A stretch of 64,000 bases of DNA from Lachnospiraceae bacterium (GTDB lineage Bacteria; Bacillota; Clostridia; Lachnospirales; Lachnospiraceae): contig SVFJ01000003.1 in NCBI GenBank assembly GCA_015056925.1, positions 1-64,000 of the forward strand. Reading direction: 5' to 3'. A model generated the notes under the pieces. That model ran no database searches, had not been told where the DNA came from, and saw only the letters and a program-made list of their open reading frames with translations. Position 1 is the stretch's first letter, and the number at the start of each line of letters is the position of its first letter. The translations under genes were made by a program, and so were the position numbers. Positions 38,631-44,948 of this stretch are shown piece by piece.

Positions 38631-39422
38631 ATGATGGAAACAGTAAAGGCAATATGGGAAGATATTGTACTATATAATGGTGACAGTTTTTTGTTTGTGC
38701 TTTTCTTGGCAGTACTTTTGGTATTGTGTTTGGTGGAAAAGGATAAGGGACTAAAGACAATACTGGTATATTTGAGTGTTGCATTAATTGTTGTTTTTAT
38801 GAATCCGCTGTATGCATGGATTGCAATGAAGGTAGATGATGAGGTATATTATCGCGTTTGGTGGACATTGCCGATAGGGATAGGTATATGCTATTGTGTG
38901 GTGAAAGCAGCTATTTGTGTTCGGAATTTAGTAAGCAAGATACTGGTTGTGGTATTGGCAGTCATAGTGATTGTGATAAATGGAAAGTTTGTTTATACCA
39001 ATACAATATATTTTAAAGCATCGAATGCATACCATACACCGCAAATGGTGATTGATGTAGCTGAAGCTGTTCGAATGGAAAATTACAATCCAAAGGCAGT
39101 GTTTCCGGCAGAGCTTCTTCCGTTTATACGGCAATATACTGCAGAAATTATCATGCCATACGGAAGAAATATGGTAGAAACAAGATGGGGATTCTCAAGT
39201 CCTTTGTATGATTGCATGGAAGCTGATGTATATGTGGCAGAAGATATTGCGAAGTATGCAAGAGAGGAGATTTGTGTGTATGTAGTGTTGTCCTCTATAA
39301 AGCCAATGGAGGGAAAGCTGGAGGATTATCATTATACGTTACAGGGCTTAGTGAGCGGATATTATATTTACATGGATGATTACTGTTATGAAATATTAAA
39401 GGAGCAGGGATATATAGAGTAA
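38631..39422 (+). CDS. DUF6077-like membrane protein, C-terminal part
   Basis: A 263-residue protein with four or five membrane helices in its first 125 residues and a soluble C-terminal part (about residues 130-263: NAYHTPQMVIDVAEAVR, MPYGRNMVETRWGF, YVVLSSIKPMEG). It is 23 bases after the upstream stop in a different frame. GAGGAAAAG precedes the ATG, so it could be translated independently. The extracellular tail resembles the C-terminus of full-length DUF6077 proteins, which are about as long as both genes together; this is from memory. It is the last gene of region A. Confidence 0.65.
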   Translation: MMETVKAIWEDIVLYNGDSFLFVLFLAVLLVLCLVEKDKGLKTILVYLSVALIVVFMNPLYAWIAMKVDDEVYYRVWWTLPIGIGICYCVVKAAICVRNLVSKILVVVLAVIVIVINGKFVYTNTIYFKASNAYHTPQMVIDVAEAVRMENYNPKAVFPAELLPFIRQYTAEIIMPYGRNMVETRWGFSSPLYDCMEADVYVAEDIAKYAREEICVYVVLSSIKPMEGKLEDYHYTLQGLVSGYYIYMDDYCYEILKEQGYIE

Positions 39423-39427
39423 TGTAT

Positions 39428-39897
39428 CTTATAAGAAGTTGCGAAACAAATTCTTATAAAAGGCACATTTATGTGCCGTGCATCTGATTACAGGGTTCAC
39501 GAAGTGGTTCCTGTAATATAACTTATAAGAAGTTGCGAAACAAATTCTTATAAAAGGCACATTTATGTGCCGTGCATTTGATTACAGGGTTCACGAAGTG
39601 GTTCCTGTAATATAACTTATAAGAAGTTGCGAAGCAAATTCTTATAAAAGGCACATTTATGTGCCGTGCATCTGATTACAGGGTTCACGAAGTGGTTCCT
39701 GTAATATAACTTATGAGAAGTTGCGAAGCAAATTCTTATAAAAGGCACATTTATGTGCCGTGCATCTGATTACAGGGTTCACGAAGTGGTTCCTGTAATA
39801 TAACTTATAAGAAGTTGCGAAGCAAATTCTTATAAAAGGCACATTTATGTGCCGTGCATTTGATTACAGGGTTCACGAAGTGGTTCCTGTAATATAA
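39428..39897 (+). repeat. Five tandem 94-bp repeats, each with three hairpins
   Basis: Units start at 39428, 39522, 39616, 39710 and 39804, all exactly 94 bases. Each holds three inverted repeats: TTATAAGAA/TTCTTATAA (39429-39437 with 39451-39459 in unit 1), GGCACAT/ATGTGCC (39462-39468 with 39471-39477), and ATTACAGG/CCTGTAAT (39487-39494 with 39510-39517). The first and third have inner stems closed by a GAA triloop (TTGC-GAA-GCAA and CAC-GAA-GTG). Units differ at only three positions: GCGAAAC or GCGAAGC, CATCTG or CATTTG, and TTATAAG or TTATGAG. There are no spacers, so it is not a CRISPR. No coding potential was seen. The array covers most of the 611 bases between the genes ending at 39422 and starting at 40034. 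Confidence 0.95.
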
Positions 39898-39945
39898 GCT
39901 ATCAGAAAATAGAAAGCTATTTGATGCTTTGTGTGTGTAATTGTG

Positions 39946-39974
39946 TTGACATAAAATACTATGAAAGGTAAAAT
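39946..39974 (+). promoter_or_regulatory. Sigma-A-type promoter before the BspA-like gene
   Basis: TTGACA (39946-39951), 17-base spacer, TAAAAT (39969-39974). A TATAAT follows at 39975 but would give a 23-base spacer. Expected transcript start is near 39981, 53 bases before the ATG at 40034. Confidence 0.75.
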
Positions 39975-40033
39975 TATAATATAAGAATATATTTTTACGG
40001 AATGATATTCTGTTAAATAGGGAGGGAGATACG

Positions 40034-41032
40034 ATGAAAAAAATAATTAGCGTAATATGTTGTATTATATTACTGTGTATGCCACTAACGACTTGGGCCG
40101 CTCAGGAGAACGCCACATGGCAGAAGGTTGCCGGTAAACAGGAGTGGACATATCAGGATGCAGAGGGAACAAGCCTGACAGCAAAATTGAATGGATATAC
40201 TTTAACGATTGATGGAGTGGGAGAGATACCTGCATACACCAATAATTCACTAGGTAATAGACCATGGCACGGAGCAACCATAGTAGAGTTGGTGATTGGT
40301 AATGGTGTAACTGCAATTGGAGCAAATGCTTTTGCAGATTTCCAGTATATTTATCGAATTACGATTCCTGTAAGTGTATTGATTAAAGATAGTTCGGCAT
40401 TTAGAGGTATTAAAGAAGATGCATTTTTCATGGTAAAGGGAATGAATATTACAAATCATGGAGATGAGAAGGTACCATATACCAGTGCGGAGAGCTTTGC
40501 GAAGCTTATGGGAGATTATCCAAGCTATCGTTTCCAAGTTGATAATATGTATATGGTTCAGCTGTTAAAGAATTATTGTGATAACAAAAATGTTACCATA
40601 GCACCGTTAGATGCATTGACAAAGGATGCTAATTCTACATATCCATTGATTAATTATAGTAGTTCTATCTCATTGGCAGCAGAGGATTGGAAACCGGGTG
40701 ATTTGGTGCATGTGCAGCCTAAACAGCAGGGAGTATTGGCAAGAGAGGTGTTCTCAATTATGCTTGGCGTTATGCCTGAGTATCATTATGTATATTCATA
40801 TAATATGTCATCATATAATTTGTTGGGAGCGCCGATGACAGCAGAGGCGAAGACATATGTTATGACAATTCCGCCAGCGTATAGATTTGCCGGAAGAACA
40901 CATGCATTAATTCAGATAGGTAGTGGTGTGGTGAATATCTTAGAGGATGAAGATAATAGTACAGATACCATTACATTTACAACAGATATGCCAGCAAGTG
41001 TATTTGCTTTAGTTTATAAGGATAATTTTTAG
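40034..41032 (+). CDS. Secreted protein with a BspA/LRR_5-like segment
   Basis: A 332-residue exported protein. A signal peptide (Lys-Lys, hydrophobic core, cleavage after TWA near residue 22) leads to a TLTIDGVGEIPAY segment and a single leucine-rich element of the BspA type (VELVIGNGVTAIGANAFADF, about residues 79-98). The remaining 200 residues match nothing I recognise; they contain LAREVFSIMLGVMPEYHYVYS and a Gly/Val-rich C-terminus. There is no sortase motif or transmembrane anchor. It has its own promoter and a strong ribosome site (GGGAGGGAG), and ends at a strong terminator, so it is a single-gene unit. Function unknown; a role in surface adhesion is only a guess. Confidence 0.88.
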   Translation: MKKIISVICCIILLCMPLTTWAAQENATWQKVAGKQEWTYQDAEGTSLTAKLNGYTLTIDGVGEIPAYTNNSLGNRPWHGATIVELVIGNGVTAIGANAFADFQYIYRITIPVSVLIKDSSAFRGIKEDAFFMVKGMNITNHGDEKVPYTSAESFAKLMGDYPSYRFQVDNMYMVQLLKNYCDNKNVTIAPLDALTKDANSTYPLINYSSSISLAAEDWKPGDLVHVQPKQQGVLAREVFSIMLGVMPEYHYVYSYNMSSYNLLGAPMTAEAKTYVMTIPPAYRFAGRTHALIQIGSGVVNILEDEDNSTDTITFTTDMPASVFALVYKDNF

Positions 41033-41046
41033 AGTTGAAGCTAAAT

Positions 41047-41088
41047 AAAAATACTACACAATACTTTCGGGTATTGTGTAGTATTTTT
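41047..41088. terminator. Bidirectional Rho-independent terminator
   Basis: An uninterrupted 18-bp stem (41047-41064 with 41071-41088) with loop TTTCGG. The stem begins with a run of A and ends with a run of T, so it works in either direction and serves the convergent genes ending at 41032 and 41110. Confidence 0.95.
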
Positions 41089-41109: not shown

Positions 41110-42090
41110 TTATTCATAATATATTTTTTCTGTGATGGTTGTAATTAATTTATCAGCTATCATCTTTCGACCCTCACTGTTTGGATATGTGGAGCTTTCA
41201 GTCAGATAAGAATCGGCATTTCCAGCATGAATATTGATTCCCCAGTAGTTATCCAAATAGGTGACATTTTTTTGAACGGCAATATTCTTAGCAGCAATCA
41301 TGTAATTGGCAAGAGTAGCATTTGCATCATTTTTGCGGGTGTCGCCGGCTGAGAATGTTCCATCTTCTTCAGGGTAACAGCAGAAGGTAGGTGACATTAC
41401 AACAAACTGAATATGCGGATAAGCGTTACGTATCCAGTCTATTCCTTGTGCCAAGGCTTCAGTATAAACAGTTGAGCGATATGGTGTGGCAACCTCAAGA
41501 GTTTCAACCTCACGGCCGGAAAGATAATCTTCAGCACCATAGGAAACTACAACAATATCTATAGTGTTAAAGTCTATACCGGATAATAAATCCAATTTGT
41601 TAGCAAAGCTTTCGTCAGAAATAGATGCATTATCCAGGCCGAGACGCTGAATTTCGTATGTGTTATTCATGATACACATAGCCAGATAATAGAAACTGAA
41701 TGCATCATTGCCATAAGAACCGTCAAATCCTGTATTTAACGTGGACATGGTAGAGTTTGCAAAGCTGCAATTATAAACAGTTGCATCGGTTGCTTCCCGG
41801 ACAAGTGTTGGAATACCGCTTCCGTCGTTGTAATCATATAGTGAGCTGTCTCCCAGCATAAGAATGGTAGTTATGCCATCATCTGTATAATTTTCGATTC
41901 TGGATGGGGAGACGGTAGCGTAGAAATCTTCTGTTTCCGTATCAAAATCAGCTGCGTTAAAATCATCGGTCTGAATATCTGCGGATGATTTGTCCCATAG
42001 ATATAATTTGATAAAGGAGGCACTAAAAAGTATAGTTATAACACTTAGTAAGATAATGTGCATTAATGTGCCGGTTGTCATTTTTTTCAT
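41110..42090 (-). CDS. Membrane-anchored SGNH-like protein lacking the canonical His
   Basis: A 326-residue minus-strand gene, the only one against the flow. One N-terminal membrane helix (about residues 8-28) is followed by an SGNH-like domain with LMLGDSSLYDY, NCSFANSTMS, VVVSYGAEDYLSG and FVVMSPTFCCYP. The last block, normally DxxHPN, reads SSTYPNSEG here, so the aspartate and histidine of the triad appear to be missing. The start at 42090 has AAAGGA 9 bases upstream; a longer in-frame start (TTG, 42114) is less likely. It may be a non-catalytic or differently wired relative, perhaps binding the acylated glycan. Confidence 0.85.
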   Translation of the reverse strand: MKKMTTGTLMHIILLSVITILFSASFIKLYLWDKSSADIQTDDFNAADFDTETEDFYATVSPSRIENYTDDGITTILMLGDSSLYDYNDGSGIPTLVREATDATVYNCSFANSTMSTLNTGFDGSYGNDAFSFYYLAMCIMNNTYEIQRLGLDNASISDESFANKLDLLSGIDFNTIDIVVVSYGAEDYLSGREVETLEVATPYRSTVYTEALAQGIDWIRNAYPHIQFVVMSPTFCCYPEEDGTFSAGDTRKNDANATLANYMIAAKNIAVQKNVTYLDNYWGINIHAGNADSYLTESSTYPNSEGRKMIADKLITTITEKIYYE

Positions 42091-42125
42091 ATAATTATGT
42101 CCTTTCATATTCAAGTTCTTATTTT

Positions 42126-42239: not shown

Positions 42240-42278
42240 GTTACAAAATTGTTGATTCACTTAGAATGGGAAACAAAG

Positions 42279-44948
42279 ATGAAAAAGAAAAAAACACATG
42301 GATTATTTGGAACAAATAAGAGAAAACTAAAGACAAAAGCACAGAAATTTGTGAATGAATATGAAGAGTACGAAGAATATGATGAGTATGAAGATGAATA
42401 CGAAGAAGAGTATTATGAGGAAGAATATTATGAAGAAGAATATTATGATGAGTATGAATCTGCATATGAGGATGAGGATGTCGTAGAGCAGATAGAGTTA
42501 GATGCACAAATGGCAGAGCAACCGGATGAATCGGAAGTGATAGAGTCAGAAGAGTATGACGAATATTACGATGAAGATGAATATTATGATAATGAAGAAT
42601 ACGATGACGAGTATTATGACGATGAGTATTATGACGACGAGTATTATGATGATGAGTACTATGATGAGTACGAGCGCCCAAGAGGTATTGTAGGATGGCT
42701 TCGTAGTCTGACTGCGTTTGATATCATACTTTGTGTCACAGGTCTTTTTCTGTTGTTGGCAGGAGGAGCTGTAGCGAGTATGTGGTTTGAAGCGCATGTT
42801 GTCGAGGAGCAGATTGAAGCGATTATTCCATTGGGTGAAGAATTGAGTAACGTGGGATATATCGGTCAGGATGGTATAGAGTCTTTGGAAGATATTCTTA
42901 GAGAACCGGATACTTTACAGACTGAAGAATCAAAAGTAAATGAAACAGGAAAAGAGACAACAGAGGTAATAGATGTTTCTGTAAATACATCTGCGAAGGT
43001 AAATGTTACATTTACCTCCGCAGAACGGGATTTGAAGATACGTTTCACGGATGCGGCAACAGGTGAATTGATTACAGGGACTGTCTTCGAGGTAGTACTT
43101 ACGAATACGAGGGGAAAGTCTTTTACTGTGCAGGATACAGACAAGGATGGTATTATATACGCTACCAATGTGAATGCGGGCGATTTTCAAGCGGTCGTTA
43201 CTTCTACGGATAAGTATAGATTTCCTACTACAGGTCAAACCGTAGTGGTTAAGGACAAGGTAGAGTATGTAGTTATTAATGTGCAGGATGAGATTAAGAC
43301 AGAGTCGCAGGTTAATGTAGCCATAGAGGACACAGAGAATCTGGATGCAAAGGAAGAAGAAGTTATACTGAAGGATACGGTAGAGTGGATAGAATCCGGG
43401 AAACAGCTGGTTAGCGGAACAGGAATTTATACTAAGCTTGATAAGCAGAGTATTCCAGACCCTACACTGACAGCATCAGCAAGCGTTGACAGATTATCTG
43501 TCGGAGCATTGGCTGTAACCCTGAATCAATCGGCTCTTAATTTGTTTATAGGAGAAGAGTATAAGTTAGAGGGAACTACTTATCAGAATTCTCAAGATGG
43601 CAACGTCAAGTATGAGTATTCGACAGAGTGGAAGACTTCCAATAAAGATGTTGCTACCGTAGAGAATGGTAAGGTAACGGCGAAGGGACAGGGAAGCGCA
43701 ACAATCAGTTACATTGTAACGAGAAAGACGATTACAACAGTGGAACCTGAGGTGGAGGAAACAGAGACAGAAACAGAGACATCTGTTGCGGAGGAGACAG
43801 AGATAGAAACAGAAACAGCTGCCGCAGAGGAAACGGAGCCGGAAACGGCAGAAGCTGCAGAATCGGTAACGGATGCCGAAACAGATGGCGCGTCAAAAGC
43901 ACCATCTGAGGTGGAATCGGACAGTGTTTTGGAGACAGAGGTTAGCTCGGAAGATGTTTCTAGTGAGCAGGTTGCAGAAATATCTGTAGACAGAATGAAT
44001 AAAACAGTGACCACAACAGAAACGACAGAAACAGCTACCGCTACCTGTGAAGTGAAAGTTTCTAACAAGCAGGCTTCAGATGTGAAGACTAAGCTTAAAG
44101 ATAAAAGTGGAAATCAGGTTTATATTAAAGATAGCAAAGGAAACTATATAGAGGCTGTTTATGCAGATTATTATACCCAACAAGAGTTTTATATTAAGAT
44201 TGAACCACAATATTATTATACAGGATGGCAGACAATTAATGGTAAGACATATTTTTATGATAAGACGGGAAAGCCGGTTGTAGGAGCGCAGACTATTCAG
44301 GGTGTAACCTACAATTTCGGAGCGGATGGAGCAATTCAGACCAATATTAACGGTACTACCTTTGGAATTGATGTGTCTAAGCATAATGGCAAGATTGATT
44401 GGAAGGCAGTTAAGAGCTCAGGAGTTGATTTTGCTATTATCCGATGTGGTTATCGCGGTTCTTCCACAGGTGTGATGATTGAAGACCCGAAGTTCCGTGA
44501 GAATATAAAAGGAGCAACAGATGCGGGCATCAAAGTTGGTATTTACTTCTTTTCGCAGGCGGTAGATGAAGTTGAGGCGGTTAAAGAAGCATCTATGGCA
44601 GTTAGTCTTGCTAAGGGGTATAACCTGGCATATCCAATATTTATCGATACGGAGTCTAGCGGAGGAAGAGGAGATAAGATTAGTAAGGAGGCAAGGACTG
44701 CAGTGGTAAATGCATTTTGTAAGACGGTGCAGGATGCAGGTTATCTGGCAGGCGTATACTCTTCCAAGACATGGTATGAGAAGTATCTGGATGTATCTGG
44801 GTTTGGAAGCTATAAGATATGGCTGGCTCACTATGCAGAGGTCCCTAATTATAGCGGCAGATTTGATATGTGGCAGTATTCCTGTAAGGGAACAATTAGC
44901 GGTATTAGCGGAAAGGTTGATTTGAATTACAGCTATTTGGGCTATTAA
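42279..44948 (+). CDS. Membrane-anchored GH25 muramidase with acidic Tyr-rich tail
   Basis: An 889-residue type II membrane protein. Residues about 25-135 are an Asp/Glu/Tyr-rich, low-complexity cytoplasmic tail including four DDEYY units; a membrane helix follows (about 147-170). Outside are a SpaA/Cna-B-like beta domain (about 251-310: RDLKIRFTDAATGELITGT, DKDGIIYATNVNAGD), a Big_2-like domain (about 410-484), a Thr/Glu/Ala-rich linker, choline-binding-type repeats (GWQTINGKTYFYDKTGKPV, about 644-689) and a C-terminal GH25 lysozyme domain (695-889) with GIDVSKHNGKIDW, FIDTES and KVDLNYSYLGY. It should cut peptidoglycan glycan strands close to the membrane. It has its own promoter and lies divergent from the minus-strand gene. 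Confidence 0.92.
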   Translation: MKKKKTHGLFGTNKRKLKTKAQKFVNEYEEYEEYDEYEDEYEEEYYEEEYYEEEYYDEYESAYEDEDVVEQIELDAQMAEQPDESEVIESEEYDEYYDEDEYYDNEEYDDEYYDDEYYDDEYYDDEYYDEYERPRGIVGWLRSLTAFDIILCVTGLFLLLAGGAVASMWFEAHVVEEQIEAIIPLGEELSNVGYIGQDGIESLEDILREPDTLQTEESKVNETGKETTEVIDVSVNTSAKVNVTFTSAERDLKIRFTDAATGELITGTVFEVVLTNTRGKSFTVQDTDKDGIIYATNVNAGDFQAVVTSTDKYRFPTTGQTVVVKDKVEYVVINVQDEIKTESQVNVAIEDTENLDAKEEEVILKDTVEWIESGKQLVSGTGIYTKLDKQSIPDPTLTASASVDRLSVGALAVTLNQSALNLFIGEEYKLEGTTYQNSQDGNVKYEYSTEWKTSNKDVATVENGKVTAKGQGSATISYIVTRKTITTVEPEVEETETETETSVAEETEIETETAAAEETEPETAEAAESVTDAETDGASKAPSEVESDSVLETEVSSEDVSSEQVAEISVDRMNKTVTTTETTETATATCEVKVSNKQASDVKTKLKDKSGNQVYIKDSKGNYIEAVYADYYTQQEFYIKIEPQYYYTGWQTINGKTYFYDKTGKPVVGAQTIQGVTYNFGADGAIQTNINGTTFGIDVSKHNGKIDWKAVKSSGVDFAIIRCGYRGSSTGVMIEDPKFRENIKGATDAGIKVGIYFFSQAVDEVEAVKEASMAVSLAKGYNLAYPIFIDTESSGGRGDKISKEARTAVVNAFCKTVQDAGYLAGVYSSKTWYEKYLDVSGFGSYKIWLAHYAEVPNYSGRFDMWQYSCKGTISGISGKVDLNYSYLGY

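Follow-up and report, generated by a model that had tools for sequence, protein, structure and literature searches.

Small interspersed repeats of bacterial genomes are usually tied to IS elements with inverted ends or to Y1 transposases, and the non-autonomous derivatives of IS200/IS605 are, we presume, those that go by the name of PATEs. The bcr4-type repeats of Bacillus cereus are interspersed and have a conserved fold, a trait that recurs in the Lachnospiraceae family described here. BOX of Streptococcus pneumoniae, together with RUP and SPRITE, is portrayed in passages of PMC3049150 as a set of small intergenic stem-loop repeats with variable tandem modules, probably parasitic and non-autonomous. 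The REP/BIME/REPIN repeats with RAYT (TnpAREP) are, in the portions of PMC3733652 and PMC8266576 that treat them, extragenic palindromes that occur in many copies, form tandem clusters and touch the ends of ORFs. The array considered here lies at 39428-39897 of a 64,000-nucleotide stretch of DNA from a Lachnospiraceae bacterium (contig SVFJ01000003.1; hereafter the window), and it is probably a place where one family of mobile elements has inserted, elements that are short, non-coding and non-autonomous and have a repeat period of about 94 nt, in other species mostly 93-97.

The array consists of five contiguous units of exactly 94 bases, as the original prediction held, and TRF reports the same period over 39419-39897 (5.1 copies, 97% matches, 0% indels, score 909). 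The units differ by the few substitutions anticipated, which fall at three positions: position 6 (A or G, with the variant in unit 4), position 19 (A in units 1-2, G in units 3-5) and position 57 (C or T across the array). The predicted fold of a single unit has three hairpins and an energy of -33.8 kcal/mol, whereas shuffled sequences average -18.1 (z -5.34; none of 200 shuffles does as well); for the opposite strand z is -4.91. Delimited by TRF, folding and alignment (A1) and all read on the + strand, the units are unit 1 at 39428..39521 (hairpin 1 39429-39459, hairpin 2 39462-39477, hairpin 3 39487-39517), unit 2 at 39522..39615 (39523-39553, 39556-39571, 39581-39611), unit 3 at 39616..39709 (39617-39647, 39650-39665, 39675-39705), unit 4 at 39710..39803 (39711-39741, 39744-39759, 39769-39799), in which an A to G change in the stem of hairpin 1 gives a G-U pair, and unit 5 at 39804..39897 (39805-39835, 39838-39853, 39863-39893). 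The triple hairpin that had been proposed is thus present; the GAA triloop ascribed to each hairpin holds for hairpins 1 and 3, and hairpin 2 has the loop TTTA. GCGAAGC, a heptamer known for forming an exceptionally stable DNA mini-hairpin, occurs where it was predicted, in units 3-5, with GCGAAAC in its place in units 1-2, but as a conserved feature the heptamer does not hold up, occurring in 19 of 119 family units. The natural order of a unit is TAATATA-AC-hairpin1-hairpin2-hairpin3, terminating in TAATATA, and at the junctions within the array a single TAATATA is common to both adjoining units (39514-39520 at the end of unit 1; the terminal copy in unit 5 is at 39890-39896). The corresponding left end, placed by sequence and by left-end conservation over 88 left-most units, is TAATGTA at 39420..39426 (+ strand). 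The unique spacers of a CRISPR array are absent, the units being contiguous and near-identical across all 94 bases, and an Rfam cmscan of 39000-40300 gave three matches with E values of 0.23-1, all far under the gathering scores.

The left end of the array overlaps the stop codon of an ORF of 263 aa without a Pfam match (38631..39422, + strand), that stop codon being the TAA of TAATGTA. A promoter-like site (11/12 matches) separates the array from the next ORF, at 40034, and the array is therefore placed downstream of the co-directional ORF run. On the minus strand, hairpin 2 and the TTTTAT after it look like a terminator, at five sites in the array, and may thus have a local side effect on termination. 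Farther along the window, an 18-pair terminator-like hairpin (41047-41088, - strand) lies between the convergent ORFs 40034-41032 and 41110-42114, and an 899-aa ORF (42249-44948, + strand) has a repetitive N-terminal part rich in Asp, Glu and Tyr (TRF arrays at 42355-42667) and a C-terminal part which we take to resemble a GH25-type lysozyme.

The search of the genome for further copies that had been proposed was productive: BLAST located 11 places, and R1, a covariance model built from 34 units of genus copies (alignment A1), identified 22 units in 11 loci: five arrays (of 5, 3, 3, 3 and 2 units), four units standing singly and two that are degraded. Within the genus, presumably GTDB 'COE1', 12 of 38 genomes match R1 at E<=1e-3 and 26 have no match. 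A pattern scan of named genomes yielded 12 stretches, with carriers that include Lachnospiraceae bacterium COE1 (G010), UBA7179 (G003), Anaerocolumna sp. MB42-C2 (G062), Clostridiales bin_249 (G063) and Lachnospiraceae ABMPRH_302_1 (G064, the same assembly as G427, with the same coordinates); R1 matches number 16 in G062, 60 in G063 and 16 in G064. In a sample of the Lachnospiraceae spanning 397 genomes and 334 genera, matches at E<=1e-6 come from 10 genomes and 9 genera, and under the strict filters used for a sample of the class Clostridia the single match among 391 genomes is the source genome itself; stricter filters were applied in searches over 40 genomes, and since R1 was built from genus copies, other genera are under-counted. 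L050, a weak double listing of L018, was excluded from the unit set. Within the samples searched the family is restricted to the Lachnospiraceae, and its host range is several gut and soil bacteria. Two family patterns gave 0 matches each in viral contigs, and one unit gave no match in plasmids and phages. Several carrier contigs terminate inside arrays, and the arrays thereby explain assembly breaks in carriers. A literature search returned no paper describing the family; an unnamed earlier listing is possible among the thousands of candidate RNAs in the supplements of PMC8040213.

The structure has been conserved while the sequence has changed. In alignment A1 (34 genus units) 93.3% of cells pair, and double-sided changes occupy 96 cells against 20.4 (sd 3.5) when shuffled and at most 29 in slid-partner controls; in A3, an independent MAFFT alignment of 36 units from outside the genus, 92.6% of cells pair, with 143 double-sided cells against 41.0 (sd 5.5) shuffled and at most 39 in slid-partner controls. 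The covariance check suggested by the original prediction therefore gave strong compensatory change within the genus and, separately, in other genera, and since compensatory changes occur in all three stems, its view of a functional structure rather than a coding sequence is upheld. Between species the stem sequence is fully exchanged (hairpin 2 variants are GGCAC, GGCGC, GCCCT, GGGGC, GGTGC and GGCGG), and the linkers AAAAGG and CCG-n-ATC-n-GATTA are kept. Median Watson-Crick stem lengths over 119 units from 19 genomes are 13, 6 and 12, and the subterminal hairpins 1 and 3 are present in the 119 listed units. The + strand is the more stable in 105 of these 119 units under RNA parameters and in 92 under DNA parameters, and distinct cases of G-T versus A-C in stems stand at 42:19 (p 0.004; 39:19 minus the source genome). 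It therefore seems that a single strand is the one that folds, which may be as RNA or as single-stranded DNA. Private substitutions are rarer in stems (79/5303) than at unpaired positions (69/2141; p 3.5e-6), and 42 of the 79 in stems still pair (26 Watson-Crick, 16 G-U), a pattern that exceeds plain neutral decay and would fit either selection on single copies or palindrome repair. Covariation alone cannot decide for one or the other, and strong covariation in a repeat need not imply a host-selected RNA.

The unit is also discrete. Among 88 left-most units conservation starts at A|TAATATA and drops almost to background in the one or two bases beyond, and over 82 right-most units information falls across the last bases of TAATATA; the period of 119 units ranges from 87 to 99, mostly 93-97. 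Terminal inverted repeats are absent from these 119 units (mean end identity 0.316 versus 0.306 shuffled). Strict target duplication, judged from the left and right 7-mers, at first appeared well supported over 101 units (120 differences versus 140.6, 0/2000), but these included array units. In 47 isolated units the likeness of left and right TAATATA beyond chance is weak, with 80 differences versus 85.6 and 327 of 5000 shuffles as low. In G064 the two end 7-mers are altered together (TAATAGA). Identity within arrays is 0.968 (20 pairs) versus 0.924 between loci (170 pairs), with 0 of 2000 label shuffles as high, and this closer likeness within an array suggests that the window array grew mainly by local duplication. 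We infer that this duplication followed a first insertion; the common junction TAATATA would also permit insertion beside an existing copy.

Two empty sites bear on movement: in relatives the site is unbroken and contains one TAATATA, and where it is filled it is longer by one unit and has a TAATATA on each side. At the first, the element of G010 lies directly downstream of a TTGACA-17-TATACT promoter, in the leader of a gene with the domains Put_DNA-bind_N and CoA_binding, which we assume to be Rex-like; G006 and G011 have no element and keep one TAATATA, and G031, G035, G027 and G024 have neither element nor TAATATA. The difference between G010 and G006 is 90 nt, that is, one 95-nt unit minus a 5-nt change beside the element. 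At the second, the element sits in G021 at the end of a MatE gene, G060 and G015 hold a single ATAATATAACC, and the difference between G021 and the empty site is exactly 95 nt, the period of the inserted unit; the element is also absent from G014, G017 and G007. With outgroups lacking the element, loss is less likely than insertion. Three species have a copy at a third site (L033), which shows decay: the copy is intact in G028, whereas G016 retains hairpin 1 alone and the copy of G019 has diverged. In G028 this site also holds, adjoining the intact unit, a fused remnant made of the 5' half of hairpin 1 and the 3' end of hairpin 3. One further locus, with the same left flank, is common to G028 and G016. 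In G010 a fragment with hairpin 3 only (L025:1440-1550) lies between two copies of TAAAGATGAAGT.

The position of copies relative to genes speaks against the role in termination or transcript stabilisation at operon ends that had been read from the window array. Neighbouring ORFs were script-called at >=80 aa, ORFs of <600 nt that overlap an element by >60 nt being dropped, and 95 of 117 loci could be classified, the other 22 having one side with no neighbour within 600 nt or running off the end of the stretch. Copies occupy every intergenic type on either strand, with 61 loci co-directional, 25 divergent and 9 convergent, and the co-directional ones comprise 25 on the gene strand and 36 opposite (p 0.20). 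On this gene context an operon-end signal was rejected. Under the same context rules no copy lies inside a large ORF. Judged by local GC skew and gene bias, 80 loci show no replication-strand bias (40 on the G-rich strand, 40 opposite; 38 versus 37 in clear cases). Given the 25/36 and 40/40 splits, the directions of transcription and replication are immaterial, which argues against operon-end, untranslated-region and lagging-strand models alike. At L003, L008 and L023 copies run into or create ORF ends, and they may thus change protein termini. A copy in G003 (L026:1514-1714) stops 9 bases short of a tRNA-Ser gene with the anticodon cga (1623-1714). The flanks of elements in G063 repeatedly contain another, unlike interspersed repeat, about 50-165 bp long (L155:1943-2149, L163:1843-1991, L167, L168, L169, L187 and L192).

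These data leave a mobile repeat as the most likely explanation, rather than a special operon-end signal, because the triple hairpin has spread into TAATATA-like intergenic sites of several bacteria. The original interpretation is partly supported, as regards the functional structure and the further copies but not the operon-end role. Mobility is supported by the discrete, sharp-ended unit with TAATATA at both ends, by the compensated hairpins, by dispersal in both orientations and by the two empty sites. Set against it, movement would be read from sequence comparison, with a mobilising gene that is putative and clean empty sites that number two, and private stem changes are fewer, and more often still paired, than neutral decay predicts, as selection or palindrome repair would allow. 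That rarity, with the strong covariation and the strand asymmetry of folding, would be expected if each copy were under selection as a structured RNA used by the host, be it a cis element or a repeated small RNA. Such a role is unlikely, however, in view of copies that favour neither an orientation nor a position with respect to genes, neighbour genes that are unrelated, orthologous sites that are empty or truncated and an occurrence so patchy that 26 of 38 genus genomes have no match. If an intergenic palindrome had simply been duplicated in tandem on the spot, without moving at all, the likeness of units within one array would be accounted for, but this is hardly credible beside eleven dispersed loci in one genome, sharp common ends and empty sites. 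A Y1 HUH system, in which TnpA or RAYT moves REP/BIME-like or IS200/IS605-derived (PATE type) single strands, agrees with the hairpins at both ends, the lack of inverted ends, the retention of a short target on the 5' side of the insertion, the better folding of the + strand (105/119 RNA, 92/119 DNA; stem G-T versus A-C 42:19) and the Y1 genes found in 20 of 38 genus genomes. Y1-mediated movement is nonetheless disfavoured, and we hold it to be quite unlikely. Pfam Y1_Tnp has no match in 12 of 21 carriers, several of the 12 genomes being incomplete; these are 6 of 12 genus carriers, the source genome included, and 6 of the remaining 9, including G063 with its 60 matches and the single-contig Anaerocolumna (the count leaves out one further carrier, G272, and as a control the profile matches 5 of 14 known genomes, E. 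coli among them). The stretches around 50 Y1 loci (30 + 20) contain no element, the lagging-strand bias is absent (40:40), and GTAG occurs in 5 of 119 units, in one of them within the first 13 bases. Guide pairing of the foot of hairpin 3 with the left target was tried and rejected, there being no association (3 and 5 versus 11 and 36, p 0.41). CGTC is found at any position in 22 of the 119 units.

Site-specific recombination, in which TAATATA would serve as the 7-bp overlap and arrays would be built by repeated integration of tyrosine-recombinase-like or integron-cassette-like circles, is a possible but doubtful route. It would accommodate the one TAATATA of the empty site and one per end after insertion, the gain of exactly one unit, head-to-tail arrays with a common core, the absence of inverted ends and of strand bias and the joint alteration of the G064 end 7-mers. 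Yet inverted core-binding sites were not recognised around TAATATA, no recombinase is linked to the copies, and the likeness within arrays favours local duplication over independent integration. More generally, clustering of 249 flanking ORFs from 86 loci revealed no recurrent neighbour recognised, by eye, as a transposase. For the mobile element that we favour, an enzyme encoded elsewhere, and not of the Y1 kind (IS200/IS605 or RAYT), would recognise the hairpins (perhaps as they form in a single strand), and the unit would be inserted at a pre-existing TAATATA. Each insertion would in this way add exactly one period and leave another TAATATA at the right end, so that arrays would stay head-to-tail and keep an exact period; the window array would then have been enlarged mainly by local duplication, inserted copies would decay later and effects on neighbouring genes would be incidental. 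A more specific proposal, which we put forward tentatively and with greater doubt than confidence, is that this is a distinct mini-element, an RNA-like triple hairpin with no ORF, inverted ends or Y1 partner, inserted at a pre-existing TAATATA through the 7-bp likeness of end and target, one period each time. Its boldest form, SINE-like movement through a folded RNA, would explain both the better folding of one strand and the lack of replication-strand bias, and is very unlikely.

Comparison with the known systems places the family apart from each of them. BOX (PMC3049150) is the closest in habit, being an interspersed, tandem intergenic repeat with stem-loops; it is modular (boxA, tandem boxB, boxC) and has been likened to the ends of ISSpn2. 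In the Lachnospiraceae family, by contrast, the whole three-hairpin unit repeats, the ends are direct TAATATA copies with no inverted ends, and the hosts are others. With REP/RAYT it has in common extragenic palindromes, many copies, tandem clusters and contact with ORF ends, and it differs in having no Y1 gene in 12 of 21 carriers, no GTAG tag and three hairpins in a fixed 94-nt order. The non-autonomous derivatives of IS200/IS605 resemble it in their hairpins near both ends, their lack of inverted ends and a target kept on one side, whereas the Lachnospiraceae family has no lagging-strand bias and no Y1 gene in copy-rich G063. Classical MITEs are likewise short, non-coding and highly base-paired, with AT-rich ends and a repeated sequence at both ends, but unlike them the family has no terminal inverted repeats. 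With no Rfam match, and lacking the inverted ends of MITEs, the Y1 gene (in 12 of 21 carriers) and GTAG of REP/RAYT and the strand bias of IS200/IS605 mobility, it is a new family within the small interspersed repeats: widespread in the Lachnospiraceae, with unusually clear covariation and with defined ends and target, it fits neither the inverted-end IS type nor the Y1 type, and Anaerocolumna sp. MB42-C2, cultured and with a single-contig genome, offers a model for the movement of elements without inverted ends.
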